43,593 nucleotides of DNA from a virus. The translations under genes and the position numbers were made by a program. Below are positions 17,501 to 32,907 of this stretch, one piece after another. The stretch's first letter is position 1; every line of letters begins with the position of its first letter. The stretch spans positions 1 through 43,593 of the IMG/VR virus record IMGVR_UViG_3300031951_000358, one strand, 5' to 3'. The notes beneath the pieces are model-generated. The model worked only from the letters and a program-made list of their open reading frames with translations. It searched no databases and was not told the DNA's origin.

Positions 17501-19007
17501 CAATATCTTGACCAACTAATGCTGAAATAACTCTAGCATTTGTATAGTATAAATTATTTAACTCTGCAACATTAGCAGTTGTTAAGTCAACAACATTTGC
17601 CTTTAAATCTAATAAAGGTATTACGTTTGCATAAACTCTAGCATTAGTATAATAAAGATTTGAACCTTCTCTTAAATTACTTGTTGAAAACGTATCAATA
17701 GTTAATACAACATTAGCAATATTAGAAGTTTGTGATACATTAGATACGACCGCAGAATATGCTTCGTTTGCAATACCTGCAACAAATGATGTACCATTCC
17801 AAATTAATGTGCCGTTTGAAGTAATACCTGTAGTATCAACATCTGCGAGTACATTAATACTCATCTGTGATACATTGGATAACACCCTATTATTTGTGTA
17901 ATAAAGATTCTCTGAACCTTCATTTATTATATTTGTGTTACCTGAGAATGCTACTGCAACAATATTTTCTGTTATTGCTTGAATATTTGCAGCAATGCCG
18001 CCATTTGCTTTATAATATGTTATTGTATTATCAATTGCGGTAATTGCTGCTCTTGCTCTTGCATTGGTAAAATATAACTTGCTGCCTTCTGAAATATCAT
18101 CAGACGTGCCAGAGAATGTGGTTGTTAGTCCAGGATTTGAACCAACTAAAATCCATCCATTACTTGAATACATCAAGAATGCTGAATCACCAGATCTCTT
18201 TAATTCAATAGCAAGATTATTTTGAATATTACTTGCTAATACAAATTGTCCACCTAGGGTAGTTACTAGGTTAATAATCTTTAATTGGCCATCAGCGCCT
18301 TGTGGTAAATCTAAATAGAATTTACCGCCAGGATCAATATCTACATTTGCAACAGTAAATACAACATTTGCACCTGCAGTTCCAGGAGTACCATTATATA
18401 CAACATTTGCAGTATAACGAGTACCTAATGTATTAGTTCCATCTATAGATGATGACAATGCTAAAACATTACCGGTATTTGATGGATCACTTACATTAAA
18501 TATGTATTGCGAACCTTTTACAAACTGTAACCCTGTTGGGAATGGTCTTAATCCGGTAGGGCCAACCCAATCTTCAGGAGGATACGTGAAAACTGTACTA
18601 TCTGCTTGAGATAAGTGAATCTTATCATTTTTATATCTAACGTATAATGTCTGTGTAGTAGGAGTACCATTAGCAAATGTAAATCCTCTACCCGTGGCAG
18701 AAACATCTTCCGTATATAAGAATATTGTAGAAGGTAATATTGATCCATTCGAAATAGCATTTGCATCCGCAGAACGGCCACCATATAAATCTGTTCTAGT
18801 TGTGGTAATACTTACCGTACCAGCAGCATTTAATGTTTGAACTGTCCCGCCGAGAAGAATGTTGCCGGCTAATGTAGGATCGGTGATTGACGAAAATAAT
18901 GTACTTGCTTTTACATTATAGCTATCATTATCCTGTATAAGATAAAATAAATCATCCTTATTAACTACATTAGCACTGGCTAATTCCGATATCTTTAAAT
19001 CTGCCAT
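14598..19007 (-). CDS. Giant tail fibre/structural protein with MADLKISEL N-terminus
   Basis: A 1469-residue protein. Its N-terminus MADLKISELASANVVNKDDL matches the attachment domain found on many T4-like phage fibre or baseplate-associated proteins. A jelly-roll-like region to about residue 300 is followed by NLYYTNARV repeats, a DKNIVLANGA module, a YDLGSDAYRFRDLWLSGA module, and a duplicated block containing MSINVLADVD and NGTLIWNGTSFVAGIANEAY. The C-terminal 450 residues are non-repetitive, Ser/Thr/Gly-rich and beta-like, ending in a GQTITALAILG tip. It is first of four fibre-type genes transcribed in the same direction. The role in host attachment is inferred from architecture. Confidence 0.85.
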   Translation of the reverse strand: MADLKISELASANVVNKDDLFYLIQDNDSYNVKASTLFSSITDPTLAGNILLGGTVQTLNAAGTVSITTTRTDLYGGRSADANAISNGSILPSTIFLYTEDVSATGRGFTFANGTPTTQTLYVRYKNDKIHLSQADSTVFTYPPEDWVGPTGLRPFPTGLQFVKGSQYIFNVSDPSNTGNVLALSSSIDGTNTLGTRYTANVVYNGTPGTAGANVVFTVANVDIDPGGKFYLDLPQGADGQLKIINLVTTLGGQFVLASNIQNNLAIELKRSGDSAFLMYSSNGWILVGSNPGLTTTFSGTSDDISEGSKLYFTNARARAAITAIDNTITYYKANGGIAANIQAITENIVAVAFSGNTNIINEGSENLYYTNNRVLSNVSQMSINVLADVDTTGITSNGTLIWNGTSFVAGIANEAYSAVVSNVSQTSNIANVVLTIDTFSTSNLREGSNLYYTNARVYANVIPLLDLKANVVDLTTANVAELNNLYYTNARVISALVGQDIVTNNVIIQGDLTVEGNVVTFNTATLTVEDKNIVLANGAINSSAADGSGFNIDGAQANLKYRSTGDKFEFNKSLDVQGTLTANGWANLYAANVIGLTTANVAELTNLYYTNARVYSNVTPLLDLKANVVDLTTANVAELTNLYYTNARVYANVTERLQYLDTNIIPLISSVYDLGSDAYRFRDLWLSGATIRLGNTLLSETAGGGLSVKSASGNVNIVSDIISSNTWLGIYTANVLETEGNLYYTNARVYANVIPLLDLKANVVDLTTSNIAELTNLYYTNDRVYSNVIPLLDLKANVVDLTTANVAEGTNLYFTNARVLSNVSQMSINVLADVDVTGITANGTLIWNGTSFVAGIANEAYSAVTSNVSQTSNIANVVLTIDTFTTSNLREGSNLYFTNTRVIDALTTANVTTGNLVVSGTLTARSNVGLTLGTATQGNLISNAITMTVDTTVTNGIAQLNEILGKLVPAAPIAFPGNGYIAINSVSTFRMANFAQTDNTPSSRNVGGANIVSLVRRASSYTTTTMNDMGPGNTGTVTLYKNGSATGARTLVTGSDNGTYGDLVISDNVDYATKTGAAGGFWESFDTNASGTVSAGWNEVYINHSQGGSSNIAYWYYDSSSPGAVVFSVPVIYPTSNVYSNSSTIPHYTSATVFTMTANVKNLSGDMFPTSNTFITGSSATGFGTPSSLNYESAGVTGVPLPLTRNLYVSSGNAQISTTVNIASGFGTTTVGPSLTGQNSYISGTGSFSLGATVLYKTATISSESTMEESNIWVQGNVGSGAGYGARIINPGSTDTPVQSASALLFNSNTSTLLSYDATIVGATLKHDQTNYSVGYLPVGPNLSSGRGGAQYYTFKFSRASVGKFNIKFTGQLAGLWVALPGSAIDTTAAATNGWVDMSVAYPGSGVPSYGCALGGTVTLNTAGTQSKTCTFGSANSSDSGASGEIYIRIRLNAGQTITALAILGASN

Positions 19008-19057
19008 TAAAACACCAAAAGGTTATTAATTGAATTACATCATAACCAAATTGTGTT

Positions 19058-19591
19058 TTAAGATTCTTTCAATATAGAACCGTCGTTGGCATCGCCAAAT
19101 AATGTACCTGTGGCATTAGCATTAAAGTTCTTTGACATTGCTACTAGCAATTCTGCTTTCTTTCTTGTTGCACCTTGTGTTGTCGTATATGTTGTATACG
19201 ATAACCAACCTGGTCCTACTATACCGTTAGCTTTATTGCCCGGAACATTTGCTTCAATACGATCAACACCGTATACGTTGGCTTTATTAAGGTTATTGGC
19301 ACGGTGCCCAATTGCAGCGTTACCAGTAGGAATCCATTTTGGATCTTCTTGAATAGCAATATTAGCAGTTGCAACATTGGCACCGCGGTATGCTGTATCA
19401 AGAACAATTGTAGTGCTGTTAGTAATAGTTTGAATTGCATAATCTTCATTGGCAATCACCAATGAATACCCTGCATAAAAGCCATTAGCCGCAGTAACTA
19501 CTGGTGCGCTTGTAACAACTGTTGTGCTACCTAAATTAGCGCGAGCTGTTGCGCTAACTTCAATTCTATCTCTGTTTCCCCATGCTGACAT
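19058..19591 (-). CDS. Virion structural protein, conserved in T4-like marine phages
   Basis: A 177-residue protein beginning MSAWGNRDRIEVSATARANL, a start style shared by a structural protein family of T4-like cyanophages. It is beta-rich early (VIANEDYAIQTITNSTTIVLD) and has a basic, Asn-rich centre and a GWLSYTTYTTTQGATRKKAELLV-like segment near the C-terminus. A textbook late promoter (TATAAATAATAA) and a GGGAGAC ribosome site lie directly upstream, giving a predicted 15-base leader, which supports late expression as a virion component. Exact location in the particle is unknown. Confidence 0.75.
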   Translation of the reverse strand: MSAWGNRDRIEVSATARANLGSTTVVTSAPVVTAANGFYAGYSLVIANEDYAIQTITNSTTIVLDTAYRGANVATANIAIQEDPKWIPTGNAAIGHRANNLNKANVYGVDRIEANVPGNKANGIVGPGWLSYTTYTTTQGATRKKAELLVAMSKNFNANATGTLFGDANDGSILKES

Positions 19592-19646: not shown

Positions 19647-20684
19647 TTATTTTTTTACGGCTACGCTTGGCATGGATTCCACGCGGCGCGCCGTTCCATG
19701 GTGAATATATTTTTTACGTCCACCTTCTTGATCAGTCACAACATACTCAGCATAAGGTTGTCCGTTTTTAGTACTAAATTTATCATTCGATACTGTGTTG
19801 CCCGCCTTGCGGTGTGCAGCAATTTTATCTTCAAGTTCCATTCTAGTGAATGCTTCAATAATAACTTCTTCATAATTCTCTGCAAATGCTTGTTCTGCAA
19901 TTGCAACGATTTCTTTTTGCATTGATTCTTCATCTGTTCTAACAATAGATTGAACAGCTCTTAGGAAGTCACCGAATGTTGGATTATCAGTAATCTCAAT
20001 TGTAAAGTCGTTATGCTTGACAATAGTCTCTGTAACACCTTCTTCAAAAGAGGCGTTGATTGTGCCGCGAGGACCACGATCATCTTTGATTCCTGCGGCT
20101 ATTAGAGCATCTGCTCTGTCACCGTAAGATTTAATATCGGGTGCAACTTTTCTAATTGCTTTTTTAACTGTAGGAGAAGCACTGCTCCTTGCAATCTGAT
20201 TCATTGTTACTTTACCAGCATGACCTACTTCATCGGGCATGCCTTCTTCAATTTCTTCTTCCTCTTTAACTGTTTTTGCTTTTTTGCCAGCACGAAGCTT
20301 TGCAAAATCTTTTCCATCAATCTTTTCATCATCAACCACATCTAATACTTGTTGATTAGGATGCAATTGTTTTTCTTCAATTGTATCGCCTTCGGGTGTA
20401 GCATGTTCGTGCCTCACGCTGCTTTTAACTTTAACTGCCTCTGTTTGAATTTTGCGAACTTGGCCGTCAGCAAATTTAACATTGTACCAGTCAATAGTGC
20501 CATCTTCATTTGGTTTAGCATGTTGCTCTGAAATGCACTCGCCTTCGCCATATAAATTATGTTCAACGTGTGTAGCACAAAAATGTGCACCGTCAACTTT
20601 ACCTGCGTCTTCAGCTTTGCCTTCAACTTTAGCTTCTGTGATTTGTCTGATTGATTCAAACAAACTATTTGTGATTCTTGTCAT
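19647..20684 (-). CDS. Probable head-associated protein with prohead-type leader
   Basis: A 345-residue protein of unknown function. It begins MTRITNSLFESIRQITEA; L8-F9-E10 fits the (L/I)-x-E recognition motif of T4-type prohead protease. Residues about 30-90 (GAHFCATHVEHNLYGEGE, then DGTIDWYNVKFADGQVRKI) resemble a small beta domain repeated in head-region proteins of marine T4-like phages. The middle is acidic and lysine-rich (KEEEEIEEG). The C-terminal 110 residues include a helical stretch (MQKEIVAIAEQAFAENYEEV) and a YAEYVVTDQEGGRKKYIHHG strand pair. It is preceded by an AAAGG ribosome site and an imperfect late promoter (AATAAATA). Scaffold, core or internal head protein is my best guess; it is not identifiable as a specific T4 gene. 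Confidence 0.65.
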   Translation of the reverse strand: MTRITNSLFESIRQITEAKVEGKAEDAGKVDGAHFCATHVEHNLYGEGECISEQHAKPNEDGTIDWYNVKFADGQVRKIQTEAVKVKSSVRHEHATPEGDTIEEKQLHPNQQVLDVVDDEKIDGKDFAKLRAGKKAKTVKEEEEIEEGMPDEVGHAGKVTMNQIARSSASPTVKKAIRKVAPDIKSYGDRADALIAAGIKDDRGPRGTINASFEEGVTETIVKHNDFTIEITDNPTFGDFLRAVQSIVRTDEESMQKEIVAIAEQAFAENYEEVIIEAFTRMELEDKIAAHRKAGNTVSNDKFSTKNGQPYAEYVVTDQEGGRKKYIHHGTARRVESMPSVAVKK

Positions 20685-20715
20685 TTTTGATTCCTTTAAA
20701 ATGAATTCTATTTAT

Positions 20716-20723
20716 TATTTATT
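20716..20723 (-). promoter_or_regulatory. Imperfect late promoter (AATAAATA)
   Basis: One mismatch from TATAAATA, followed by ATAAATAG, 32 bases before the ATG at 20684. Confidence 0.5.
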
Positions 20724-20740
20724 AAGTAAACCAAACCAGT

Positions 20741-21205
20741 TTACTTACGTTTTGTCGATAATCTAGATCTTTCCAAAGCTCTTATCTTTGGCATTAACTT
20801 TACTGCAAGATTGCCTTGAATTGCCATCATATTTTTAATCTGTTGTTCCACATGATCTTTTTGTTGTGCAGATAATTGTTTCTTGCCTCTGCCACGTAAG
20901 ATTCTTTTTTGTAGAAGTCTTCTTGCGGCCGCAGTTGCTCTTTTATGTAGTACATCTATTGTAGATGTTCTTCTTAATCTCATTTTGCGAGCAGTACCGA
21001 TAGCAGTTTTTCTAGATTTTAATTTTTGTGATTTCTTTAAACGACTTGTCGCTGAAATCTTTTCATCTAATACTTGAATATCTTCTAACACGAATTCTTC
21101 AGGAGAGTATAAGTCTTCAATGTCTTCCCATGTTAAATGGTTAGCCATTTCATCGAGATCGTTCTCGCTGATTTCTTCGTTTAAAAATTCTAAAAAATTA
21201 ATCAT
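20741..21205 (-). CDS. Basic head-region protein with prohead-type leader
   Basis: I chose the ATG at 21205 (154 residues, MINFLEFLNEEISEND...), not an in-frame upstream codon, because it forms an ATGA overlap with the stop of the Dps-like gene. L8-N9-E10 fits a prohead-protease site. An acidic N-terminal part (WEDIEDLYSPEEFVLEDI) is followed by a strongly basic Arg/Lys-rich body (KLKSRKTAIGTARKMRLRRT, LHKRATAAARRLLQKRILRG). The same arrangement occurs in an uncharacterised head-gene neighbour of T4-like cyanophages. The basic body could contact packaged DNA. No enzyme motif is seen. Confidence 0.72.
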   Translation of the reverse strand: MINFLEFLNEEISENDLDEMANHLTWEDIEDLYSPEEFVLEDIQVLDEKISATSRLKKSQKLKSRKTAIGTARKMRLRRTSTIDVLHKRATAAARRLLQKRILRGRGKKQLSAQQKDHVEQQIKNMMAIQGNLAVKLMPKIRALERSRLSTKRK

Positions 21206-21639
21206 TTTAGTGTAGACTTTAACATCCAAGCATGTTTCTGATGTGCTGCAATTCTATCTTGTAAGTAATTAGATAATCCTAATTCACCAGCAGCTTCCGA
21301 TAATTTATATGCACGCATCAACGATACTAATACAGTATTGTTAGAGCTCTCCAAACTTGTAAATATACCCATAGATGAAACCACATTTGTTTCTTCTGTA
21401 ACACTTGCGTATGTAATTAAACTAGCTAATGATGTCGGGGCATATGCGCCAATTTTTCTAAGCCACTCAGCAGTAGAATCAATTGACTCATATATTTCAC
21501 TATAGATTGATTCTAAAAAAGTATGGTCTGCATAAAAACTTCTTGTTTCCACATTCCAATGTCCCGATTGTGCTTTAAAGTATGTGAGAAACGTATCCCC
21601 CAATACTTTATTCATCGCATCAACTAATTCCTCATTCAT
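21202..21639 (-). CDS. Dps-like ferritin (DNA-protecting mini-ferritin)
   Basis: A 145-residue helical protein with the Dps ferroxidase pattern: H27 (SGHWNV), H39, D54 and E58, with spacings of 12, 15 and 4 that match the canonical Dps di-iron site. Dps proteins form dodecamers that oxidise Fe(II) with peroxide, store iron and often coat DNA. Usual bacterial length is 150-180, so this one is slightly short and lacks a long basic DNA-binding tail. It sits between virion-associated genes and overlaps the next gene by 4 bases, so it may act in the particle or protect DNA late in infection; both are inferences. Confidence 0.85.
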   Translation of the reverse strand: MNEELVDAMNKVLGDTFLTYFKAQSGHWNVETRSFYADHTFLESIYSEIYESIDSTAEWLRKIGAYAPTSLASLITYASVTEETNVVSSMGIFTSLESSNNTVLVSLMRAYKLSEAAGELGLSNYLQDRIAAHQKHAWMLKSTLK

Positions 21640-21640
21640 T

Positions 21641-23530
21641 TTATACGTCCTGCGCGTTAGCTTTAACCATAGATTTATAAGATGAACTATGAGTAGCTAA
21701 TTGCGCTTTATCTCTATGTACATCTTGCATTGCTGCACCTTTTTGTGCTTCAATTTTTTGTGTTTCTGGATTGGCCAAGAAAGATTTAAATGAAGCTAGA
21801 CCAAGTGGTTTGCCTTCGTATCCTTGATCTGCAATTGGTATATCAATACCATGGAATACTTCTTTATTAGGTGAAGCATTTACATCTCTGTGTACTGTAG
21901 GAGGATCAGGTGTGTATGTCTCTTGTACATTCATTGATTTTCTGAATGACGATAAAGCCTTCTTTGTAGATGGCAATTGATCTTCGTTGTCGTCAGCAAC
22001 ATTGTTATTGTTTGAGTCTTCCATTTTTTTATCCGTTATGATTCGTTTATTACGTTCTTTAACAAACATAGGTTTGCCATCCGGGCCTATTCTTGCCACC
22101 ATCTTAAAGTCTGATGCATTAATTCCTTCAGCCACATCGCTTGCACCAAATGTAGGAATAGTCGTTCCAATTTCATTTGCAAATGTGCCATCCTTGTGCA
22201 TGGATAATTTGCTCATTTCCTGTTGATGTGTTTTAATGTATTCTAATTTATTATCAGGATATCCTAGCATATTCAATGTATCGTGTGCAATTGCAACGTA
22301 CATATTAAAATCATGTGCCATTTTGTTGGTTGCAAAATTATTAGCTTTTGCTTGTTTTTCTACTCCAAGATATGCGTCAGTTGCTTTAACTGCCTGTAAA
22401 ACATACTTTGGATTTAATTTAGTATTAGCAATTACTTCTTCTAACTGTATAGATGCACTTGGACACATATGCAGGTTAGTTGTTTTGTAACCATCAAATT
22501 CAATTTCTAAATTATGACTTGTTAGTTCTGCTAGTTGTGCTTTGGACATTAACAATGCAGGAAGTTTTCTAAGTCTATTTGTTTCTTCAACAGAAATTGA
22601 AGGGGAAAAATCTTTAAAGTTTAGTATTTTATCGCTATCTTTAATATCGTTTATCCAATGTTTTGTCGTATTACCTGATTCTAATTGTATTGTAACGTAT
22701 GATGAACCTTTGTATACGATTTTTCCCACTTCGCCGCTTTTTGATTCTACAATATCACCAAGATTAAAAATCTCTTGTGCATGATATGCTTCTCTAATTG
22801 GTACACATTTACCCTGTGCTTTGCTCCAGACAGATCCTTTTTGGCATACTGCTTCCATCCCAGGAGTCATCTTGTGCATGTATTCTGTGCCTTCAGGTGT
22901 TCCCCAATCAAAACGAAATGGATTCTCAAAATCCTCTTTAACCGCTTTAATATGATTGGCAATTTCCTCTGCATGAGGATGTAATGCTTTAGGTAGACCT
23001 GATTTGAATTTCTTCATTTCGCCTGCTCTGGCATGAGCACGCATCTTAGTTCCAGACATTCCCTCTACGCCTTCTGCGTCGGGATCTCTTTGTCCTGCTG
23101 AAACTACTTTAATTGATTTAAAATTGTAGTGGCCGTGTGCACCAGCAACATTGTTATACTTATGTAATAATTTATGATATTCATCCACACGGTCAGACCC
23201 AGCAACCATAACCAAATGCTTATAACCTTGGCCGTGTATTTTTGCTGCAGCATGCAGAAAAGTTGGAGATTGTTTAGAAGCACCTACTACCTCAGTACCT
23301 TTTGGTGCTACGTGTTTTAAGTATCCAACTTTTGCCTTTACTGGCAATGGATCTTTGGATGTGCCTTCGGAATGGGATGCTACAATAAGAGCATCAGCAT
23401 TGTGTTCTTTAGCAACTTCATGAACTTTATTAATAACCTGCTCATGACCTTTTGAAACTGGTTGAAACCGGCCGTAGGTAAAAACTTTTGTTTTTTCCTG
23501 CGATTCTGTGATGAATTGTTTAAAGTCCAT
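21641..23530 (-). CDS. Cytidylyltransferase-like nucleotidyltransferase with capsid-type leader
   Basis: A 629-residue protein. The leader MDFKQFITESQEK contains I7-T8-E9, a prohead-protease-type site. Residues about 16-200 are a HIGH-superfamily nucleotidyltransferase: YGRFQPVSKGHEQVI supplies the G-x-F-x-P...GH motif, and GMSGTKMRAHA supplies the C-terminal (S/T)-x-(S/T)-x-(I/M)R motif. This fold transfers AMP or CMP to phosphorylated substrates, as in NMN adenylyltransferase; the substrate cannot be read off. The remaining 430 residues are a mosaic: a small beta domain (IFNLGDIVESKSGEVGKIVY), helical segments and a MFVKERNKRIITDKK stretch. A perfect late promoter precedes it. The combination suggests an enzyme packaged in the head and delivered with DNA, which is inference. 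Confidence 0.8.
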   Translation of the reverse strand: MDFKQFITESQEKTKVFTYGRFQPVSKGHEQVINKVHEVAKEHNADALIVASHSEGTSKDPLPVKAKVGYLKHVAPKGTEVVGASKQSPTFLHAAAKIHGQGYKHLVMVAGSDRVDEYHKLLHKYNNVAGAHGHYNFKSIKVVSAGQRDPDAEGVEGMSGTKMRAHARAGEMKKFKSGLPKALHPHAEEIANHIKAVKEDFENPFRFDWGTPEGTEYMHKMTPGMEAVCQKGSVWSKAQGKCVPIREAYHAQEIFNLGDIVESKSGEVGKIVYKGSSYVTIQLESGNTTKHWINDIKDSDKILNFKDFSPSISVEETNRLRKLPALLMSKAQLAELTSHNLEIEFDGYKTTNLHMCPSASIQLEEVIANTKLNPKYVLQAVKATDAYLGVEKQAKANNFATNKMAHDFNMYVAIAHDTLNMLGYPDNKLEYIKTHQQEMSKLSMHKDGTFANEIGTTIPTFGASDVAEGINASDFKMVARIGPDGKPMFVKERNKRIITDKKMEDSNNNNVADDNEDQLPSTKKALSSFRKSMNVQETYTPDPPTVHRDVNASPNKEVFHGIDIPIADQGYEGKPLGLASFKSFLANPETQKIEAQKGAAMQDVHRDKAQLATHSSSYKSMVKANAQDV

Positions 23531-23571
23531 TGTTTTCCATTAGAATATAGTTGATACTTATTATTTATAAA

Positions 23572-23579
23572 ATAAGGAT
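23572..23579 (-). promoter_or_regulatory. Late promoter TATAAATA
   Basis: Perfect box followed by ATAA, 42 bases before the ATG of the nucleotidyltransferase-like gene. Confidence 0.82.
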
Positions 23580-23586
23580 GTTTGGT

Positions 23587-24327
23587 TTATAAGCCATATC
23601 TGGTCTTAGTAGTATTAAAAGTTGTGTTTATTTCAGTAAATGTTAATGCTCTATTATAAATTAATACCTGTGAAATTGCACCGTTAAAGTTTCTTGTACC
23701 ACCGCCTCCCGTGTCTTGTGATATAAAGAAATTTAAATTTGTAACCGTAGAATGTGAAAGAAATTGACCGGATGATGTTAATCCGCTAGATTTTCCTAAA
23801 TATGCAGTTGCCTGTGTTGATGTGACACGAATTGCCATCATGGCCCATGCGTTATTAGGTACGGATAATCCGGTATCCCAATTATATGTCCCTTCATCAT
23901 TATTCCAATGATATCCTATTGAGTTATTTCCCCCAGGAGCAAAATTCATGCCGGTAGCAGAATTTGTGGCAGACCCCATACCATCTCTACTCATTAAAAT
24001 ACTAGTATAATCAGCTTGTGTTTGACTGGAATTTATCCAAACAATAAAAGTTGCTGCGGATAAAGATGATATAGTACCAGACGTTGAAACATACCTATTA
24101 TTAACTAAATTAAATGTAAAATATCCTGGATCTGATGTATAACTAGGACTATTTACCAATGTTCCATTATTTGATTGTCCGCTTAAATCATTCCAAGCTG
24201 TTCCGCTGCCAGAATAACTTGCAGCATCTAAATATAGTATCAAGCCGTCGGTAATAACACTATAACCAACAGGGTAAGATCCTAAGACAAGGCCGTTGCC
24301 CATTTGTATTCCGTTTCCTATTTGCAT
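23587..24327 (-). CDS. LamG/concanavalin-type lectin-fold structural protein
   Basis: A 246-residue protein with a short Gly-rich N-terminus (MQIGNGIQMGNGLVLGSY). It continues as a typical LamG-like jelly roll: GLILYLDAASYSGSGTAWND, FNLVNNRYVSTSG, SAATFIVWINSS, and the closing ISQVLIYNRALTFTEI that is diagnostic for this family. Such domains bind glycans or decorate phage particles. There is no signal peptide or membrane segment. It lies 8 bases behind a 29-codon gene and before the nucleotidyltransferase gene, within the late block. Decoration protein or tail adhesin cannot be distinguished. Confidence 0.78.
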   Translation of the reverse strand: MQIGNGIQMGNGLVLGSYPVGYSVITDGLILYLDAASYSGSGTAWNDLSGQSNNGTLVNSPSYTSDPGYFTFNLVNNRYVSTSGTISSLSAATFIVWINSSQTQADYTSILMSRDGMGSATNSATGMNFAPGGNNSIGYHWNNDEGTYNWDTGLSVPNNAWAMMAIRVTSTQATAYLGKSSGLTSSGQFLSHSTVTNLNFFISQDTGGGGTRNFNGAISQVLIYNRALTFTEINTTFNTTKTRYGL

Positions 24328-24335
24328 TATAAATC

Positions 24336-24425
24336 CTACGAGTAATTATTTGGTATTGGTGGTACAGGATAAGGGTGTTTTGGTTTGGGTGGTTTTTTTT
24401 TCGGCTTGTGTTTAAACCAACTCAT
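24336..24425 (-). CDS. Proline/lysine-rich micro-protein (29 aa)
   Basis: A 29-residue frame beginning MSWFKHKPKKKPPKPKHPYP, half of it Pro or Lys. It is preceded by a perfect AAGGAGG ribosome site five bases from the ATG, the strongest in this part of the window, so I regard it as real despite its size. Similar MSWFK-starting micro-proteins occur among the head genes of T4-like cyanophages. It is disordered and basic, possibly DNA- or capsid-associated. Function is unknown. Confidence 0.65.
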   Translation of the reverse strand: MSWFKHKPKKKPPKPKHPYPVPPIPNNYS

Positions 24426-24518
24426 CTTACCTCCTTTTTATCTAAAGTTAATCAAAATATATAGACAGCCTATTGACATGATGTTATTATATGCTATGAG
24501 GCTCAGTGATAAGAAACA

Positions 24519-25091
24519 TTAACAGTTCCACTTTCTAAGGGCTTTGTTAATTCTTGAATCAGGGTCTCTAGCAGTCTTAGCGGATGTTAATCGCTTCTTC
24601 ATTCCACCCATACGAGCACAAAAAGATTTTCTTCTATTAGCTGCTTTACTTCCGGGCTTTAATTTAGATGGTTTAGTAGTTACGGCCATTTGTAACTTTG
24701 AACCGGGATTTTCTCTACGATATGAAGCAATGCCAGCTTTGTTTAATCCGCCTTCAGGATTCTTTCCCTCTTTGCGTTGCCAAGCTGCAACTTCTAATAG
24801 CTCTTCATCCGTAACCGATTCGAGTTCTTCCCAAATTATTTCGGAATCAACATTATTTTCTTTCGCAATGTCTTCGATGACATCTTCAATTAGGTCAAAA
24901 ATGTCTTCTACCGATTCGGCTGATTGTTTAAGTGCTTGTGCAGTAGGTGCACCTTTACTTCCAGGTTTACGCATACGTTCACCTGACCCAGCTTTGATTC
25001 GTTTACGTTTTGCGTGGATGTTATCCCATAATCCTCGTTTGCCTTCTTCAACAGATTGAAGTTCTTCCCTTACTTGTTTAAATGTTTTCAT
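24519..25091 (-). CDS. Conserved basic protein with C-terminal DUF6321-like domain and capsid-type leader
   Basis: A 190-residue protein. The leader MKTFKQVREELQSVEEG has V7-R8-E9. A basic stretch (residues 20-50) and an acidic helical segment (VEDIFDLIEDVIEDI) precede a very characteristic C-terminal domain of about 85 residues. That domain contains WQRKEGKNPEGGLNKAG, TTKPSKLKPGSKAANRRKS, FCARMGGMKKR and a final DPDSRINKALRKWNC. It is recognisable as a small conserved family (DUF6321-type, named from memory) widespread in T4-like and other aquatic phages, with a near-invariant Cys and many Lys/Arg. It overlaps the next gene upstream by 4 bases. Biochemical role unknown; nucleic-acid contact is likely from charge. 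Confidence 0.75.
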   Translation of the reverse strand: MKTFKQVREELQSVEEGKRGLWDNIHAKRKRIKAGSGERMRKPGSKGAPTAQALKQSAESVEDIFDLIEDVIEDIAKENNVDSEIIWEELESVTDEELLEVAAWQRKEGKNPEGGLNKAGIASYRRENPGSKLQMAVTTKPSKLKPGSKAANRRKSFCARMGGMKKRLTSAKTARDPDSRINKALRKWNC

Positions 25092-26284
25092 GCTGATCTT
25101 TCGAAATTTGCTGCACTAAACTCTGCTCTATCCACAATCTTAGATGGTCTATTGTTTATAACTGCAACGTGGCCTTCGGGTTTAACTGGTTTGCCTTTGA
25201 TACTATGATGGAATGCGTATTCTGCTCCACCTAATGTGTGTGCCAAAACATTCTTTGCGTTTTGTAGGTGCTTATGAATATCAAAAGTAGTTTTAAATTC
25301 TTCTTTATGCGATTCAATGTGTCCGACTGCTTTAATTAATGTTGCACTTTTCGCAGCTTTTGCTTTGTCTGTTTTAACTTTGTCTACTTCTTTTTGTAAC
25401 TTATTTGATACATGAGCTATATATCCTGCAACCGAGGGAGTAGATTTATTTCTAACAGTTTGATTAATATAAGTCTTTAAATGTTCTTTGTGGTTCTCAT
25501 TTTCACCTTCAATATGCGAATAATCTTTTAATTTAGTATGAGCTTCAACTGCTTTTTTCATATGACCTTCAAACGCCTTTTGTGCATCAGGTGCATAATG
25601 TGCTGAAGATGGCCTAAAAGATGTATCAATCATATGAACATCGGAATGTTTGTTGAAATTTGATATATCTGCATTATATTGTGCCTTCATATCTTCTAGC
25701 TTGTTACCTTGATATGCAGTATGGACAGCTACACCAATCTTTGCTGCTTTTGCTTTTGCAGCTTCAGGTGTACCATTCTTAGCAGAATATGTAATTGTGT
25801 TTGGCTTAAAATGAACTGAACCTGCAGAAGATTCTACATCTCCGGTAGGATTTGATTTGCTCTTGACACCTGAGTGCATAATGTCACCCTGGTATACTCC
25901 ACGATTTGGAGTTACTTTTTGTAAATGATGTAGAGCAGCAGTTAACTTTGCAACCAGGCCGGGCGCGTGACCATGATTCTGTTGTATGTCAGATTCAGTA
26001 TAGTTTAATTTTGGATTCTTATTGAATACAGATTTAGACGCAACGAAGAATCGGCCTGATTCCGGATGGTGTCCAAATATAACTGAAGGCGACCCATCAT
26101 ACTTTGTCGATATAGATACAGATGATTTTTTGCCTTGTAGAGCACGATGTGTTTCTTGAAGGGTATTAAATGCGTGTTTAAATCCTTCTTCGCCAGCATT
26201 GATCGGATGATCTTCAGCGTGCTCTAAATGGGTTAACTTGTCTTCATTTGCAGATTCATTTAGATAAGCGGAGAATGAAAACAT
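25088..26284 (-). CDS. KxDG ligase/nucleotidyltransferase-like protein with capsid-type leader
   Basis: A 398-residue protein. The leader MFSFSAYLNESANED carries L8-N9-E10. Residues 57-66 read SISTKYDGSP, which fits motif I (K-x-D-G) of the DNA/RNA ligase and capping-enzyme superfamily; K61 would be the adenylated lysine. GVYQGDIMH at about 129-137 and HFKPNTITYSAKNG further on resemble later motifs. The C-terminal half is Lys/His-rich and helical. It belongs to an uncharacterised phage family and lacks an obvious OB-fold. It sits in a translationally coupled trio (4-base and 1-base overlaps) with a PD-(D/E)XK-like and a DUF6321-like gene. Ligase activity is a hypothesis. Confidence 0.68.
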   Translation of the reverse strand: MFSFSAYLNESANEDKLTHLEHAEDHPINAGEEGFKHAFNTLQETHRALQGKKSSVSISTKYDGSPSVIFGHHPESGRFFVASKSVFNKNPKLNYTESDIQQNHGHAPGLVAKLTAALHHLQKVTPNRGVYQGDIMHSGVKSKSNPTGDVESSAGSVHFKPNTITYSAKNGTPEAAKAKAAKIGVAVHTAYQGNKLEDMKAQYNADISNFNKHSDVHMIDTSFRPSSAHYAPDAQKAFEGHMKKAVEAHTKLKDYSHIEGENENHKEHLKTYINQTVRNKSTPSVAGYIAHVSNKLQKEVDKVKTDKAKAAKSATLIKAVGHIESHKEEFKTTFDIHKHLQNAKNVLAHTLGGAEYAFHHSIKGKPVKPEGHVAVINNRPSKIVDRAEFSAANFERSA

Positions 26285-27432
26285 TATGCTGCCTTTCCGG
26301 CGCTTTTTAATGTGCTCAATGGATCGCTTTGTGAATCAAATTTGTGAGTCTGTGAAGCAAATTTCTTCTCAACACCTGTTTTTGGATCAGTGTGATAGAA
26401 ATGGACACCCGTGCCGCTAGCTCTAACTGTAATATTTTTATGGTCGTTTAGAATATGCTCATAATCATGACCCGGGTGCGATTCATGATGCTGAGTACCT
26501 TTTGCAGTTTTATACGTAGTATGTTTACGAAAAGTTCCTACTCCCGCTTGTTCTGCAGGAGTAGTGTGTGCGTGTAATACATCTCGAATATGATTAACTA
26601 CGTGCTCATGGTCACCTGAATCTAATTTGTGTTGTAGTTCAACTGAATGATGATAAGCTACTGCTCTTAATAATTTTAAATTTTCTGTTTTAATCTGTTT
26701 GTGTTTTTCCGGATTTTTCTCGGCCCATTCTTTTCTAGCTGCAGGCAAATCCGCATGGTGATCTTCTTTTTTAATATCTGTTAATTCTGGGTGCATCGCT
26801 TTGATTTTCTTTTGATGCGCTTTAAATAACGTGTCGGCCATTGAACCACTAGATTGTTTACCTAGACTAGAAGAAGGCACATTTTTACTTGAATTTTCAC
26901 TAACTTTTAAGCTTCTACCGTGATATACTACTTTACCCGTTTTTGGATGTTTGGTAGTTATATAAATGTCTGACGAATCTTCTTTTTGTGTTGCCTTAAC
27001 CCCTGTTACTTTTTGGGTATCACCTTTCTTGGATGTATGTGATACACTAGTAATTATATGGCCAGGATGTGTTTTTGCGATACTAGCGCGAATATCTGCT
27101 GCCGCGCTATCAGCTCCTGCTTTGATCTTTGCATAATCTTTTGGATGGATTTGCGCCTTTAATCTATCGTGTGCTTGTTCAGGTGTTTCTTTTCTTTTAG
27201 TTTTTTCGTCAACCAAATGAAAATCTGGCATATGTTTGTCGTTATTTAATGCCTTGCCGGTAAGGAGTTCGTGTAAAACACCTCTGGTATTATTTGTAAC
27301 CTGGCCTTCGACTTTGGGATTATCTTTTTTGACTGCTTCGTTGAGCTCTTCGATGTCAAAATCTTCAGAAGTTTCGTATAGGTCTAATACGATATCGTTA
27401 AGAGATTCTCTAAGGTTCTTAAATTGTTTCAT
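26284..27432 (-). CDS. PD-(D/E)XK nuclease-like protein with capsid-type leader
   Basis: A 382-residue protein. The leader MKQFKNLRESLNDIV has L7-R8-E9. A conserved helix-type segment NNTRGVLHELLTGKAL (about residues 46-61), an acidic strand SSDIYIT, and HGRSLKVSE with a Ser-Leu-Lys triplet followed by NVPSSSLGK give the order E...D...(S)LK. This fits PD-(D/E)XK nuclease-like folds seen in uncharacterised phage proteins. The C-terminal 200 residues are His- and Lys-rich (HHESHPGHDYEHIL). It is transcribed from a perfect late promoter at 27465-27472 and overlaps the ligase-like gene by one base. Nuclease activity is unproven. Confidence 0.62.
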   Translation of the reverse strand: MKQFKNLRESLNDIVLDLYETSEDFDIEELNEAVKKDNPKVEGQVTNNTRGVLHELLTGKALNNDKHMPDFHLVDEKTKRKETPEQAHDRLKAQIHPKDYAKIKAGADSAAADIRASIAKTHPGHIITSVSHTSKKGDTQKVTGVKATQKEDSSDIYITTKHPKTGKVVYHGRSLKVSENSSKNVPSSSLGKQSSGSMADTLFKAHQKKIKAMHPELTDIKKEDHHADLPAARKEWAEKNPEKHKQIKTENLKLLRAVAYHHSVELQHKLDSGDHEHVVNHIRDVLHAHTTPAEQAGVGTFRKHTTYKTAKGTQHHESHPGHDYEHILNDHKNITVRASGTGVHFYHTDPKTGVEKKFASQTHKFDSQSDPLSTLKSAGKAA

Positions 27433-27452
27433 TTTTCGTCCATTTAAATGAA

Positions 27453-27508
27453 TTATACTAATATTATTTATAATAACAGAATTTACGAAACACGTGGAAA
27501 ACCGGCGA
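27453..27508. repeat. 56-bp direct repeat, copy 1
   Basis: Identical to 27952-28007. Contains the late promoter, then GAAACACGTGGAAAACCGG and the first terminator arm. Confidence 0.9.
27465..27472 (-). promoter_or_regulatory. Late promoter TATAAATA
   Basis: Perfect box followed by ATATTA, inside a 56-bp duplicated cassette; drives the nuclease-like gene at 27432. Confidence 0.82.
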
Positions 27509-27521
27509 TATTCGCCGGTTT
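27498..27521 (-). terminator. Terminator after His-rich paralogue A
   Basis: Stem ACCGGCGA/TCGCCGGT with 3-base loop, followed by TTTTCC on the minus strand; nearly symmetrical, so perhaps active both ways. Confidence 0.75.
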
Positions 27522-27532
27522 ATCTTATTATA

Positions 27533-27931
27533 TTACTTAGAAGTATGTAGTTTTTTAACGTGCTCTATTGCGGAAGGTAAATCTTTAAGGTGTTTTTCGT
27601 GAACATGCTCATCGCCCTCATCATCGAGGGTGGCATTTTTATAATGAACAGTCCTAACAGTCGCTGTATTATCTTTATGATGACTAACAGTCGCCGAATA
27701 ATTCATATTTTCGTGTTCATGGGAGTAGTGATCTTTTACTGGAGACTTATGTTTTAACTTTTGGGCATCCAGTTGTTCTTTATCGTTGCCCACGGCATGG
27801 AAAAAATGGGGTTGTTCTCCGTGTAGGTTCTTTCCGCTAACAGTATTTAATTTTTTAACAATTTCATCATGATTTTCGTTAAGATTTTTTCCTAACAACA
27901 TACTTGCAATTGATTCGTGTAATTTTTGCAT
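27533..27931 (-). CDS. His-rich late protein, paralogue A, capsid-type leader
   Basis: A 132-residue protein beginning MQKLHESIASMLLGKNLNEN. L4-H5-E6 fits a prohead-protease site. The rest is His/Lys-rich (KDHYSHEHENMNYSATVSHH) and ends in a helix KDLPSAIEHVKKL. It is plainly paralogous to the gene immediately upstream (shared LHESIA, SPVKDHY, TVSHHxDNTATV, HxKDLPSAI). It has its own late promoter and a hairpin terminator three bases past its stop region. Metal binding is possible from the histidines. No family recognised. Confidence 0.72.
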   Translation of the reverse strand: MQKLHESIASMLLGKNLNENHDEIVKKLNTVSGKNLHGEQPHFFHAVGNDKEQLDAQKLKHKSPVKDHYSHEHENMNYSATVSHHKDNTATVRTVHYKNATLDDEGDEHVHEKHLKDLPSAIEHVKKLHTSK

Positions 27932-27951
27932 TTTTATTTCCTAGAATATAG

Positions 27952-28007
27952 TTATACTAATATTATTTATAATAACAGAATTTACGAAACACGTGGAAAA
28001 CCGGCGA
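27952..28007. repeat. 56-bp direct repeat, copy 2
   Basis: Identical to 27453-27508. The two copies bracket His-rich paralogue A, as expected from tandem duplication of gene plus intergenic cassette. Confidence 0.9.
27964..27971 (-). promoter_or_regulatory. Late promoter TATAAATA
   Basis: Perfect box in the second copy of the 56-bp cassette; drives His-rich paralogue A. Confidence 0.82.
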
Positions 28008-28023
28008 ATTGCTCCGCCGGTTT
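27998..28023 (-). terminator. Terminator after His-rich paralogue B
   Basis: Stem AAACCGGCG/CGCCGGTTT with 8-base loop, followed by a T-run on the minus strand; half of it is in the duplicated cassette. Confidence 0.73.
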
Positions 28024-28039
28024 GTTGTTTTATTAGATG

Positions 28040-28471
28040 TTATTCTGGCGTTTTTAGAGTTTTAACGTGCGCTATTGCAGACGGTAAATCTTTAAAATGC
28101 TTTTCCCGGTGTTTATCGGAAACATTATAGTCTTGTTGTCTATCAGACCATTTTTGACGATATGAAGAATGTTGAACAGTTGCTGTATTATCAGCATGGT
28201 GACTTACTGTAATATGATGTTCATGTTGATCTTCTGCGCCACCTGAGGCAAATTGACCTTGGTGATAATAATGATCTTTTACTGGAGATGAATGAGCAGG
28301 AGAACCGCTAGGCGATTCTTTATTTTCCCCAGATCCATGTGTAAATGCAGGAGTTTCACCGCCAATATCTGGACCTGCCGCAGAATTTAAATGCTTAATA
28401 ACTTCATTATGATTCTCATTAATAATTTTATTTAACAACATACCTGCGATTGACTCGTGCAAAGTTCTCAT
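28040..28471 (-). CDS. His-rich late protein, paralogue B, capsid-type leader
   Basis: A 143-residue paralogue of the downstream gene, beginning MRTLHESIAGMLLNKIINEN, with L4-H5-E6. The middle is Ser/Gly/His-rich and longer than in copy A (GSGENKESPSGSPAHSSPVK), and the C-terminus is KHFKDLPSAIAHVKTL. It has its own TATAAATA promoter and a hairpin after the stop. The pair arose by tandem duplication that also copied the intergenic promoter/terminator cassette. A packaged internal-head-protein role is suggested by the leader only. Confidence 0.72.
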   Translation of the reverse strand: MRTLHESIAGMLLNKIINENHNEVIKHLNSAAGPDIGGETPAFTHGSGENKESPSGSPAHSSPVKDHYYHQGQFASGGAEDQHEHHITVSHHADNTATVQHSSYRQKWSDRQQDYNVSDKHREKHFKDLPSAIAHVKTLKTPE

Positions 28472-28498: not shown

Positions 28499-28506
28499 TA
28501 TTTATA
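28499..28506 (-). promoter_or_regulatory. Late promoter TATAAATA
   Basis: Perfect box followed by ATTA, 28 bases before the ATG of His-rich paralogue B. Confidence 0.82.
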
Positions 28507-30070: not shown

Positions 30071-30199
30071 TTAAATTACTTCGTATTCGTCTTTGCCCAC
30101 ACCGCATTCTGGGCATAAAAAATCTGCAGGAAGTTCTTCCCATTTACCTTCTGTTTGATCATCGTGGATATGACCACAAACTACGCATACGTGTTCCAT
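30071..30199 (-). CDS. Rubredoxin-type domain protein (42 aa)
   Basis: A 42-residue frame, MEHVCVVCGHIHDDQTEGKW, ending CPECGVGKDEYEVI. It contains C5-x-x-C8-G and C29-P-x-C32-G, the two knuckles that hold a single Fe(SCys)4. The ending matches the rubredoxin-like C-terminus of rubrerythrin. It overlaps the rubrerythrin stop by one base (TAATG), so translation is coupled. It is shorter than classic rubredoxins (50-55). It would pass electrons to the di-iron partner. Its stop lies 7 bases from the 5' end of the neighbouring tRNA gene. Confidence 0.85.
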   Translation of the reverse strand: MEHVCVVCGHIHDDQTEGKWEELPADFLCPECGVGKDEYEVI

Positions 30200-30648
30200 T
30201 ATAGGTTCTCCAATACTTGTTTATACGCATTAGCATGACGCTCTTCAACTTTCTTAAGAGCAGCAAAACGCTTTTCTGCTTTCTTAAGAACTTCTAAAAA
30301 TTGTTCTGCGTGTTCTTTTGATTCTTGAATTTGATTGCTGGCCTCAAGCATTGCTTTTGTATTGCCCTCATGCTCAGCAGCTCGTTTGAATTCAGGATAC
30401 ATTTCAGTATACTCATAAGTTTCACCGTCAATTGCTTTCTGTAAACATTCTTTGGTAGATGGTTTACCGATTAGCAATTCTAAATGACCCCATGCGTGTT
30501 TAATTTCTTGATCTGCAGTATGTTCAAAGTGTTTGGCAACATCTTCAAACCCTTCTTCACGAGCAATCTTAGCGAAATATCGATACTTGATATGAGCCAT
30601 GGATTCGCCAGCCAATGCGCTCTCAAGATTTTTTAATGTAATAGACAT
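30199..30648 (-). CDS. Rubrerythrin-like di-iron protein lacking its rubredoxin tail
   Basis: A 149-residue ferritin-like four-helix protein. The ATG at 30648 (MSITLKNLESALAGESMAHI) is preceded by AGGA; an upstream in-frame codon would run into the tRNA-Leu gene. Metal-ligand helices are visible: GES at 14-16, ADQEIKHAWGH near 45-55, YPEFKRAAEHEG, and ESKEHAEQF. Rubrerythrins reduce peroxide using a di-iron site plus a C-terminal rubredoxin domain. Here that domain is a separate coupled gene. A role in oxidative stress defence or iron handling during infection is inferred from the family. Confidence 0.87.
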   Translation of the reverse strand: MSITLKNLESALAGESMAHIKYRYFAKIAREEGFEDVAKHFEHTADQEIKHAWGHLELLIGKPSTKECLQKAIDGETYEYTEMYPEFKRAAEHEGNTKAMLEASNQIQESKEHAEQFLEVLKKAEKRFAALKKVEERHANAYKQVLENL

Positions 30649-30667
30649 AATTTTCCTAATATAAAAA

Positions 30668-30752
30668 TGGTACCTGAGACCGGAATCGAACCGGTACACC
30701 TTGCGGCGAGAGATTTTAAGTCTCTTGTGTCTACCTATTTCACCACTCAGGC
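30668..30752 (-). tRNA. tRNA-Leu(TAA)
   Basis: A class II cloverleaf with acceptor GCCTGAG/CTCAGGT, anticodon loop CTTAAAA, a normal long variable arm (CGCCGCAAGGTGT) and encoded CCA (30668-30670). Confidence 0.93.
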
Positions 30753-32331: not shown

Positions 32332-32907
32332 ATGAACCCCTATGAAGAATTAGACGTTTCAAGAAATGCTACTACCGAAGAAATACGGCAAAGGTATAGG
32401 ATACTTGCACAACTTCATCATCCAGATAAAGGCGGAGATGAGGAAATTTTTAAACGTATAAAACTTGCATATGAAATACTAAGTGATACTATTCGTAGAA
32501 AAGAATATGATAAAACTGGTAAAACTCATCCAACTCGAGATATACGGAATGAATCTTTAGAAATTATTGGTCAACTGTTATTCAGAATTGTACCAAATTG
32601 CAATCCTGAAATAGATAATTTAATTGGTATAATGACCGAAGATATATTCAAAACAAAAGAAGAGTTAACTGTAAATATTGCTATTTGCGAGACTCATATA
32701 TTAAAAATTAATAAAGTAATAAATCGATTAAAAATTAAAACTGATGATGAAAATTTAATTTTAAAATTTTTAGAAAAACAATTAGATACTCGTTTACAAG
32801 AAAATTTAGAGTTTAAAAGAAAAATAGATGTATGTGAGGTTGTATTGTCTATTCTTAAAGACTATGAATATGGATTAGCTAGTTTAATGCCGCCTCTAGA
32901 TAACTAA
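32332..32907 (+). CDS. J-domain (DnaJ-like) co-chaperone, only plus-strand gene
   Basis: A 191-residue protein. Residues 1-65 are a J domain: MNPYEELDVSRNATTEEIRQ, the invariant H30-P31-D32, and FKRIKLAYEILSDTIRRKEY. J domains stimulate Hsp70 ATPase. The remaining 125 residues are helical, charged and coiled-coil-like (KINKVINRLKIKTDDENLIL), with no Gly/Phe or Cys-rich zones, so this is a class C type. It is the only gene on this strand; its last 12 bases overlap the 3' end of the converging oxygenase gene. An AATAAATA late-promoter-like box lies 14 bases before the ATG, but no good ribosome site is visible. Confidence 0.83.
   Translation: MNPYEELDVSRNATTEEIRQRYRILAQLHHPDKGGDEEIFKRIKLAYEILSDTIRRKEYDKTGKTHPTRDIRNESLEIIGQLLFRIVPNCNPEIDNLIGIMTEDIFKTKEELTVNIAICETHILKINKVINRLKIKTDDENLILKFLEKQLDTRLQENLEFKRKIDVCEVVLSILKDYEYGLASLMPPLDN

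Follow-up and report, generated by a model that had tools for sequence, protein, structure and literature searches.

The IMG/VR virus record IMGVR_UViG_3300031951_000358, analysed here as a complete record of 43,593 bases (the window), carries a cluster of minus-strand genes in which eight protein products begin with a short leader containing a hydrophobic-x-Glu triplet. At least six of these eight proteins probably bear a capsid-targeting leader of the bacteriophage T4 type and would be packaged in the head. Judging from the sequences, the leader is likely to act as a T4-type signal for both targeting and cleavage on the enzyme-bearing cargo of T4-like phages of the Kyanoviridae type. The relatives of the DUF6267 protein encoded in the cluster come mostly from T4-like phages of that family.

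Late in infection, the aromatic residues in the N-terminal peptide (9-10 residues) would attach the protein to the prohead core. A gp21-type S77 protease would then cut after [LIV]-x-Glu and free the mature protein inside the head, from where it would travel with the packaged DNA and probably enter the host together with it. The cargo would include a cytidylyltransferase/NMNAT-like enzyme and an enzyme with a predicted RNA-ligase fold (DUF6267). Packaging, the cut, the injection and the enzyme roles in the window phage are inferred.

The leader motif in the window

Proteins are named here by the position of their start codon (Table 1); the 21205 protein was translated from the ATG at 21205. 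All eight leaders listed in the original prediction are present in the translations, but the order in which they were given does not fit the coordinates, the true order running from MTRITNSLFES at 20684 to MRTLHES at 28471. The triplet noticed near the starts is real: [LIV]-x-E lies within residues 2-10 in 8/8 proteins. All eight leaders also read [LIV]xE[SE], that is an aliphatic residue, a Glu at position 10, 9 or 6 and then a small or acidic residue. Among 37 hand-picked minus-strand gene models, [LIV]xE[ASE] falls in the first 11 residues of eight of the ten cluster genes and of none of the other 27 (Fisher 1.2e-6), compared with 14 of 996 stretches inside proteins. The looser [LIV]xE, counted in the first 10 residues, separates 8/10 cluster genes from 5/27 others (Fisher 0.0011). 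These P values are post hoc because the motif was named from these same genes, and the independent tests are therefore other genomes. Leader aside, BLASTP detected no convincing similarity among the eight proteins except between the paralogues 27931 and 28471 (45%, 1e-30).

In the ten-residue capsid-targeting sequence of T4 IPIII, residues 4 and 7 serve targeting and residues 8 and 10 processing; Asp at residue 10 stops cutting, not targeting, and gp21 cleaves after L/I-x-E (PMC9026906, accessible part). The full pattern derived from T4, [FYW]xx[FYW][LIVMF]xE, is matched by three of the eight proteins (21205, 23530 and 26284) and partially by another three (20684, 25091 and 27432). As candidate targeting signals these six leaders are convincing, and the MxxLHES pair of the paralogues is weak.

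Leader conservation in relatives

The likeness to the T4 capsid-targeting sequence that had been proposed was borne out at positions 4, 7, 8 and 10, in the DUF6267 alignment as well as by the T4-derived pattern. The alignment has 22 rows, in which the relatives are 32-90% identical to the window protein and one to three rows are gapped in the leader columns. Its majority consensus is MxxFxxFLxE, with Glu at column 10 in all 21 readable rows and F or Y at residue 7 in 18/21. Entropy is 0.29, 0.72 and 0.00 bits at positions 4, 8 and 10, as against 2.25-3.01 bits at positions 2, 3, 5, 6 and 9. In this alignment, the positions kept are those that T4 genetics names. An RNA-level signal as the cause of the leader was dropped, because codons vary between families and between relatives whereas the key residues are constant.

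Genome-wide, the pattern fixed from T4 was sought in residues 2-13 of the proteins of eight sets, namely the window, five relatives, T4 and S-CREM2, with gene calls made here except for those of S-CREM2. It occurs in 22 of 1710 N-termini and in 24 of 26,974 internal stretches (P 1.9e-18), a roughly 15-fold difference. The matches are spread over the sets (window 3, G001 3, HTVC008M 0, Melnitz 3, G003 2, G004 3, T4 3, S-CREM2 5), and at least three that look chance-like by eye (S-CREM2 ORF30, G003 77520 and G004 146735) were kept in the counts. In T4 itself the pattern picks out both MKTYQEFIAE proteins and one frame of 54 residues (18966-19130, minus strand, locus L131), which starts MKTFKEFIKEDM and has the same kind of leader. 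In 47 IMG/VR loci, 43 of 706 distinct N-termini carry the pattern against 0.4 expected, about 100-fold above the internal rate; because the DUF6267 protein served as the query that retrieved them, these loci are biased towards the cluster, and rows that are homologous do not count as independent. Single linkage sorts 58 pattern bearers (T4 excluded, three named proteins added by hand) into 18 families, 13 of which are single proteins. The bearers include a RimK-like ATP-grasp protein (Melnitz) and an S-adenosylmethionine (SAM) lyase (S-CREM2). In G004, a further protein, whose leader MKYFKHLREE is of a related form, matches a family of polynucleotide kinases (phrog_415, 4e-9).

Retention of the leader within families was scored as a loose [LIVMF]xE in residues 4-15 with the window's own copy counted, a measure in which start-calling errors may explain some of the misses. 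It is retained in 25/27 DUF6267 proteins and, for each of the two small paralogues, in 7/7 distinct sequences (own and partner's included). The Dps homologues, which served as the contrast family, pass this test in 3/11 cases.

Some ways of counting were discarded. The loose [LIV]xE was rejected as the sole genome-wide argument, the motif being too common: in the five relatives its rate is 0.146-0.203 at N-termini and 0.113-0.143 internally. An ungapped leader profile built from the window's own families was set aside as circular there, and the T4-derived pattern was preferred. Cytidylyltransferase matches in the BLAST-built 21205 family were disregarded, since they had been drawn in by a homologue (L009) that is a fusion.

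Virion proteins of cultured relatives

The virion list of S-CREM2 comprises 52 proteins (PMC10665884, whose accessible part underlies all S-CREM2 virion results given here). Mapped on all 219 annotated open reading frames (ORFs), these are 26 non-structural or unassigned proteins, 24 structural ones and two endolysins. The T4-like pattern is present in 5/26 non-structural or unassigned virion proteins, 0/24 structural ones and 3/167 undetected proteins (P 0.0013); when all 52 virion proteins are taken together, P is 0.020. With the loose [LIVMF]xE the corresponding counts are 10/26 and 24/167 (P 0.0055). Three of the leader-bearing virion proteins are enzymes, the SAM hydrolase ORF6 (MKDFDSFLEE), the kinase ORF14 ((V)KRFDAFLTEE) and the cytidylyltransferase ORF154 (MKNFSSFLTEA), and the other two are ORF13 (MKDLHSFLTEQ) and ORF136 (MQTFSMFFSED). 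The DUF6267 protein of S-CREM2 (ORF87, starting MNKATKPLTHIEH) has no leader, nor is there one in frame upstream, and it is absent from the virion list. ORF87 is a small natural experiment that, as a single case, suggests the right direction.

For S-SCSM1, whose published virion list has 45 proteins, virion marks were taken from the record notes at 20000-115000 of its 228,827 bases. Its NMNAT, which starts MKSFLQFLKEA, is marked as a virion protein. The cytidylyltransferase family of the window has matches in S-SCSM1 ORF91 (6e-48) and S-CREM2 ORF154 (3e-32). A cytidylyltransferase was also held by S-SM1 virions (PMC3037559, accessible part). A protein kinase in S-CRM01 virions is cited in the accessible part of PMC10665884; this is presumably the product of the S-CRM01 kinase gene that starts MISFDQFLSEK.

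S-CREM2 ORF12 was rejected as a plain leader case: LRFASFMAEAA lies at residues 17-27 and is not N-terminal as annotated because it stands behind a CTG. In this virion protein (L141:7704-10313, minus strand), and likewise in its S-CRM01 counterpart g128 (L145:14400-14951), a leader-like stretch at residues ~17-28 follows a W-rich N-terminal extension. Hidden Markov models of the two small paralogues matched S-CREM2 ORF135 with E 0.03-0.04, matches to which we gave no credence.

Prohead protease and capsid cut site

The search for a prohead protease gene gave a divided answer, negative for the window record and positive for its relatives. Peptidase S77 (gp21) was found in nine of the 13 records searched, including the 202,665-bp relative G001, and gp23 likewise in 9/13. 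The four records lacking gp21 and gp23 measure 54-114 kb, yet two others, 62 and 75 kb in size, have both. Two further records, S-SCSM1 and S-CRM01, also have gp21 (2/2). In the gp23 alignment, all ten relatives have [LI]-x-E at the T4 site GSFLTE/A, which we take to be the cleavage site of T4 gp23; in L067 the site reads I-M-E across a gap set by the aligner, and S-SCSM1 gp23 has GSFLAEAP there.

Predicted cargo

The original prediction spoke of a multi-enzyme set. Two of the eight proteins fit this description, the cytidylyltransferase/NMNAT-like protein and the DUF6267 protein with its predicted RNA-ligase fold, while the other six are without established activity. The former (23530) matches PF01467 with 21.2 bits (cut-off 21), phrog_3041 (7e-62) and phrog_395 (3e-50).

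DUF6267 is present in 464 phage records. The AlphaFold2 model of the window protein has a mean predicted local distance difference test (pLDDT) score of 88.8 and a long helical part; the leader (residues 1-12) is below 50 and lies outside the confidently folded part. VIA-align placed RNA or tRNA ligases at ranks 1-26 and DNA ligases or a thermophilic RNA ligase at ranks 27-41. The best match was Naegleria RNA ligase (Z 9.3; 3.6 A over 185 residues), and T4 Rnl2 and Rnl1 scored 7.6; only rows 1-15 reach Z 8, below which a common arrangement may be reflected. K61, D63 and G64 are invariant over 22 sequences (KxDG), and K61-x-D63-G64 presumably corresponds to ligase motif I (KxDG). A plain Foldseek search with the model gave no significant E values, and the DUF6267 profile had no significant sequence match among solved chains (best E 0.11, an unrelated helix). 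Taken together, the model predicts an RNA-ligase-fold nucleotidyltransferase. No leader was found on DUF6267 in S-CREM2, S-CRM01 and P-RSM6, the three records checked for this, so packaging of DUF6267 would be lineage-specific. The open-access literature searched, outside which most subscription papers lie, has no mention of DUF6267.

The best Foldseek match of the 27432 protein was HinP1I (E 0.061; model pLDDT 76.5, residues 1-36 below 50), and D155 and SLK 174-176 are conserved in five sequences. Such a model is possibly, though weakly, indicative of a nuclease-like protein of the PD-(D/E)XK (restriction-enzyme-like) kind. The 20684 protein has short matches to phrog_22379 (5e-10) and phrog_11470 (5e-8), both of function unknown.

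Counter-evidence and alternative explanations

Several results weigh against leader-directed packaging. The virion evidence comes from homologues in S-CREM2 and S-SCSM1, and a search of the 43.6 kb window record found no gp21-type S77 protease, so that the protease of the window phage is taken from its relatives. The 27931 and 28471 leaders contain the LxE half only, the targeting aromatics at 4 and 7 being absent; the pattern scan of the HTVC008M set gave no full-pattern N-terminus; and the late-promoter-like TATAAATA, considered below, is not in excess in the window overall (10 vs 9.7). The leader conservation expected across relatives holds for DUF6267 and the small paralogues but is patchy in the other families: cytidylyltransferase 16/24, DUF6321 10/14, the 21205 family 6/10, the 20684 family 5/9 and the 27432 family 2/5, with the Glu absent in two of four aligned relatives of the 27432 protein. 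As for S-CREM2, four N-terminal patterns were tried, two of which gave P 0.0013. The [LIV]xE[ASE] form of the original prediction goes in the expected direction there, if weakly (2/26 vs 1/167, P 0.048), and the leader profile reached an area under the curve of 0.59 (P 0.08) for the 26 non-structural virion proteins, with six in the top 11. Detection was based on one peptide for ORF13 and on three for ORF154, and the authors note that regulatory proteins could be contaminants (PMC10665884). In the homologous cluster of S-SCSM1, one of seven virion proteins (NMNAT) has the full pattern and six are without it, and ORF30 (L258:24216-24536; 106 residues), which starts with the full-pattern MKTFKQFMSES, is not marked as virion. 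Finally, the DUF6321 family matches the S-CREM2 virion protein ORF137 (3e-18), and S-SCSM1 ORF29 is a virion protein with a DUF6321 domain by eye; neither has an N-terminal leader, hence the leader is not the sole entry route.

These last two proteins also speak for an explanation in which the proteins are head-associated and the leader is a protease propeptide devoid of targeting power, recruitment being due to the folded domains, some of which are basic; the short MxxLHES leaders, which retain the cut half only, would fit as well. We consider this improbable in view of the conservation in DUF6267 of both targeting aromatics, not just of the cut positions, and of the presence of the same leader on enzymes of unrelated kinds. 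Alternatively, the S-CREM2 and S-SCSM1 enzymes might be abundant contaminants that stick to particles, with the leader serving another purpose, such as anchoring to the assembly site in the cell. Co-purification was raised by the S-CREM2 authors (PMC10665884, accessible part), and among the proteins marked as virion in the S-SCSM1 record is a translational repressor, whose presence there resembles carry-over. That leader-bearing proteins are over-represented among the detected non-structural S-CREM2 proteins and that the leaderless DUF6267 protein of that phage is absent from the virion list renders contamination very unlikely. Least credible, with a probability close to nil, is chance or a translation-start bias, in which a motif would have been read into AT-rich late genes that often start M-K-x-F. 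The mild genome-wide enrichment of the loose [LIV]xE in the five relatives would agree with it, but the excess of the full pattern over internal rates in both the sets and the loci, the constancy of the key residues under varying codons and the low score of the Dps genes of the same cluster, even with the loose test, do not.

Gene cluster and neighbouring features

The ten-gene minus-strand cluster (Table 1) is flanked by large repeat-rich genes that appear tail-fibre-like by eye and by a tRNA region, the window having 24 tRNA genes. The row of leader genes is broken by the Dps/ferritin and LamG lectin genes, both without leader. In HTVC008M, Melnitz, S-CRM01 and P-RSM6 the enzyme/DUF cluster is situated between the gp41 and gp61 genes.

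The sequence TATAAATA, which we take to be the T4 late-promoter core, has nine minus-strand copies in the window, and six of these stand 15-45 nt ahead of a gene start (2.6e-8), with leader genes following in four cases. In the relative G001 it is also found 32 nt before the cytidylyltransferase homologue, and in one 20-kb stretch of that genome three of five copies are 17-39 nt before a start.

Table 1. Genes of the cluster and late-promoter-like sequences in the window (a slash marks the putative cut)
Feature	Position	Strand	Leader	Leader position	Remarks
345-residue protein	19647..20684	-	MTRITNSLFE/S	20655-20684	Partial match: I 4, S 7, L 8, E 10
154-residue basic protein	20741..21205	-	MINFLEFLNE/E	21176-21205	Full T4-type match
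Dps/ferritin-like protein	21202..21639	-			No leader; in-cluster contrast; Pfam Ferritin 4.5e-16
629-residue cytidylyltransferase/NMNAT-like protein	21641..23530	-	MDFKQFITE/S	23504-23530	Full match, shorter by one residue
TATAAATA	23562..23569	-			32 nt before 23530 start
LamG/concanavalin-like lectin	23587..24327	-			No leader
190-residue DUF6321 protein	24519..25091	-	MKTFKQVRE/E	25065-25091	Compressed form; DUF6321 5.8e-19
DUF6267 protein	25088..26284	-	MFSFSAYLNE/S	26255-26284	Full match; DUF6267 3.7e-95
382-residue protein	26284..27432	-	MKQFKNLRE/S	27406-27432	Compressed form
TATAAATA	27465..27472	-			33 nt before 27432 start
132-residue protein	27533..27931	-	MQKLHE/S	27914-27931	Short leader, weak
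TATAAATA	27964..27971	-			33 nt before 27931 start
143-residue paralogue of 27931 protein	28040..28471	-	MRTLHE/S	28454-28471	Short leader, weak
TATAAATA	28499..28506	-			28 nt before 28471 start

Elsewhere in the window, small rubredoxin-like and rubrerythrin/ferritin-like genes (30071-30699, by eye) adjoin tRNAs, and a J-domain (DnaJ-like) gene (32332-32907, by eye) lies on the plus strand amid minus-strand genes. An adjacent pair of related genes at 33521-35862, starting MKKLAIIGKGTAG and MKKITIIGRGTAG, resembles by eye what we take to be flavin-dependent halogenases. In S-SCSM1, ORF30 adjoins a DUF6321-like virion protein.

Possible roles of the candidate cargo

Virion proteomics of cyanophages repeatedly finds enzymes that may be cargo or contaminant, two cases that a sorting signal legible in the sequence would help to tell apart. 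With such a signal, some of the proteins injected by marine T4-like phages could be predicted from nothing but their sequences, and the pair of leader and protease would serve to package proteins of choice. RNA repair would arrive together with the genome if the DUF6267 ligase is delivered. In the open-access literature (most subscription papers being outside it), cyanophage and capsid targeting co-occur only in a T4 review, where "cyanophage" stands in a reference title.

A broader reading, tentative and on balance doubtful, is that of a head-delivered repair kit, injected with the DNA, that would undo tRNA cleavage, nicotinamide adenine dinucleotide (NAD) depletion and restriction before phage genes are expressed, while an uncut docking helix at the C-terminus would load more cargo as well as gp21. 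Within it, the kit could consist of the RNA-ligase-fold DUF6267 protein and the NMNAT-like enzyme, which could restore NAD. In relatives, its members might be the leader-bearing polynucleotide-kinase-like protein (G004), P-loop kinases (HTVC008M; in Melnitz by eye) and the SAM lyase (S-CREM2). Candidates for the C-terminal helix would be DUF3008 tails such as KRTFKEFLEYIE and the end of S-CREM2 ORF12, PKTFRDFLN.

Among the best 80 of 561 DUF3008 loci, at least 12 phage proteins have by eye a leader-like C-terminal helix, for example KRTFKEFLEYIE, KKTYKEFIEYIR, KKSLKEFLENI and KKTFKEFMGDI (L153, L154, L156, L158, L162, L189, L191, L195, L206, L219, L222 and L230). Most other DUF3008 proteins among these 80 continue into other domains; in the ten loci from bacterial genomes no clear C-terminal helix is seen. 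S-SCSM1 ORF93 (L146:6627-6836), which belongs with the helix-bearing proteins, is marked as a virion protein. The gp21 C-termini of relatives (L051-L059, L258) have an F-x-x-F-[LMI]-like helix (LFEDFLNKISKA, MFEEFMSRMSR, LFNDFLNSL), which is absent in T4 gp21 and only loosely present in S-CREM2 gp21; gp21 propeptides might target gp21 (PMC9026906, accessible part). The ORF12 end is one of three matches in a C-terminal scan of S-CREM2, from which two of the 219 ORFs were left out, and the other two matches are not virion proteins by the accessible list.

Comparison with known systems

The closest known system is the capsid-targeting sequence of T4 IPI, IPII, IPIII and Alt, processed by gp21. 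Like it, the leader described here spans about ten N-terminal residues with aromatics at 4 and 7, an aliphatic residue at 8 and Glu at 10, is found on otherwise unrelated proteins, has a cut motif in common with gp23 and is accompanied by an S77 protease in the relatives. It differs in that the proposed cargo consists of enzymes and DUF proteins, whereas that of T4 is made up of small internal proteins, in that the genes are clustered, and in the shorter leader forms with E at 9 or 6. According to the accessible part of a review, cyanomyoviruses are without alt (PMC2984593).

The enzymes reported from cyanophage virions, namely NMNAT/cytidylyltransferase, an APH/ChoK-like kinase and SAM hydrolase (PMC10665884, PMC9602691, PMC3037559), include the same cytidylyltransferase family, and the three S-CREM2 enzymes have the leader. 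In their accessible parts these papers report presence and propose no sorting signal, and the S-CREM2 paper leaves contamination open. DUF6267 resembles T4 Rnl1/Rnl2 and Naegleria RNA ligase in its predicted fold and invariant KxDG, and differs from them in the lack of significant sequence match, the long helical part of the model and, in the window protein, the head leader. In phiKZ and SPN3US, many packaged head proteins are similarly cut after Glu by a gp21-like protease (PMC9026906, accessible part). Those are giant phages with diverged proteases, whereas the relatives of the window match the T4 gp21 and gp23 families.

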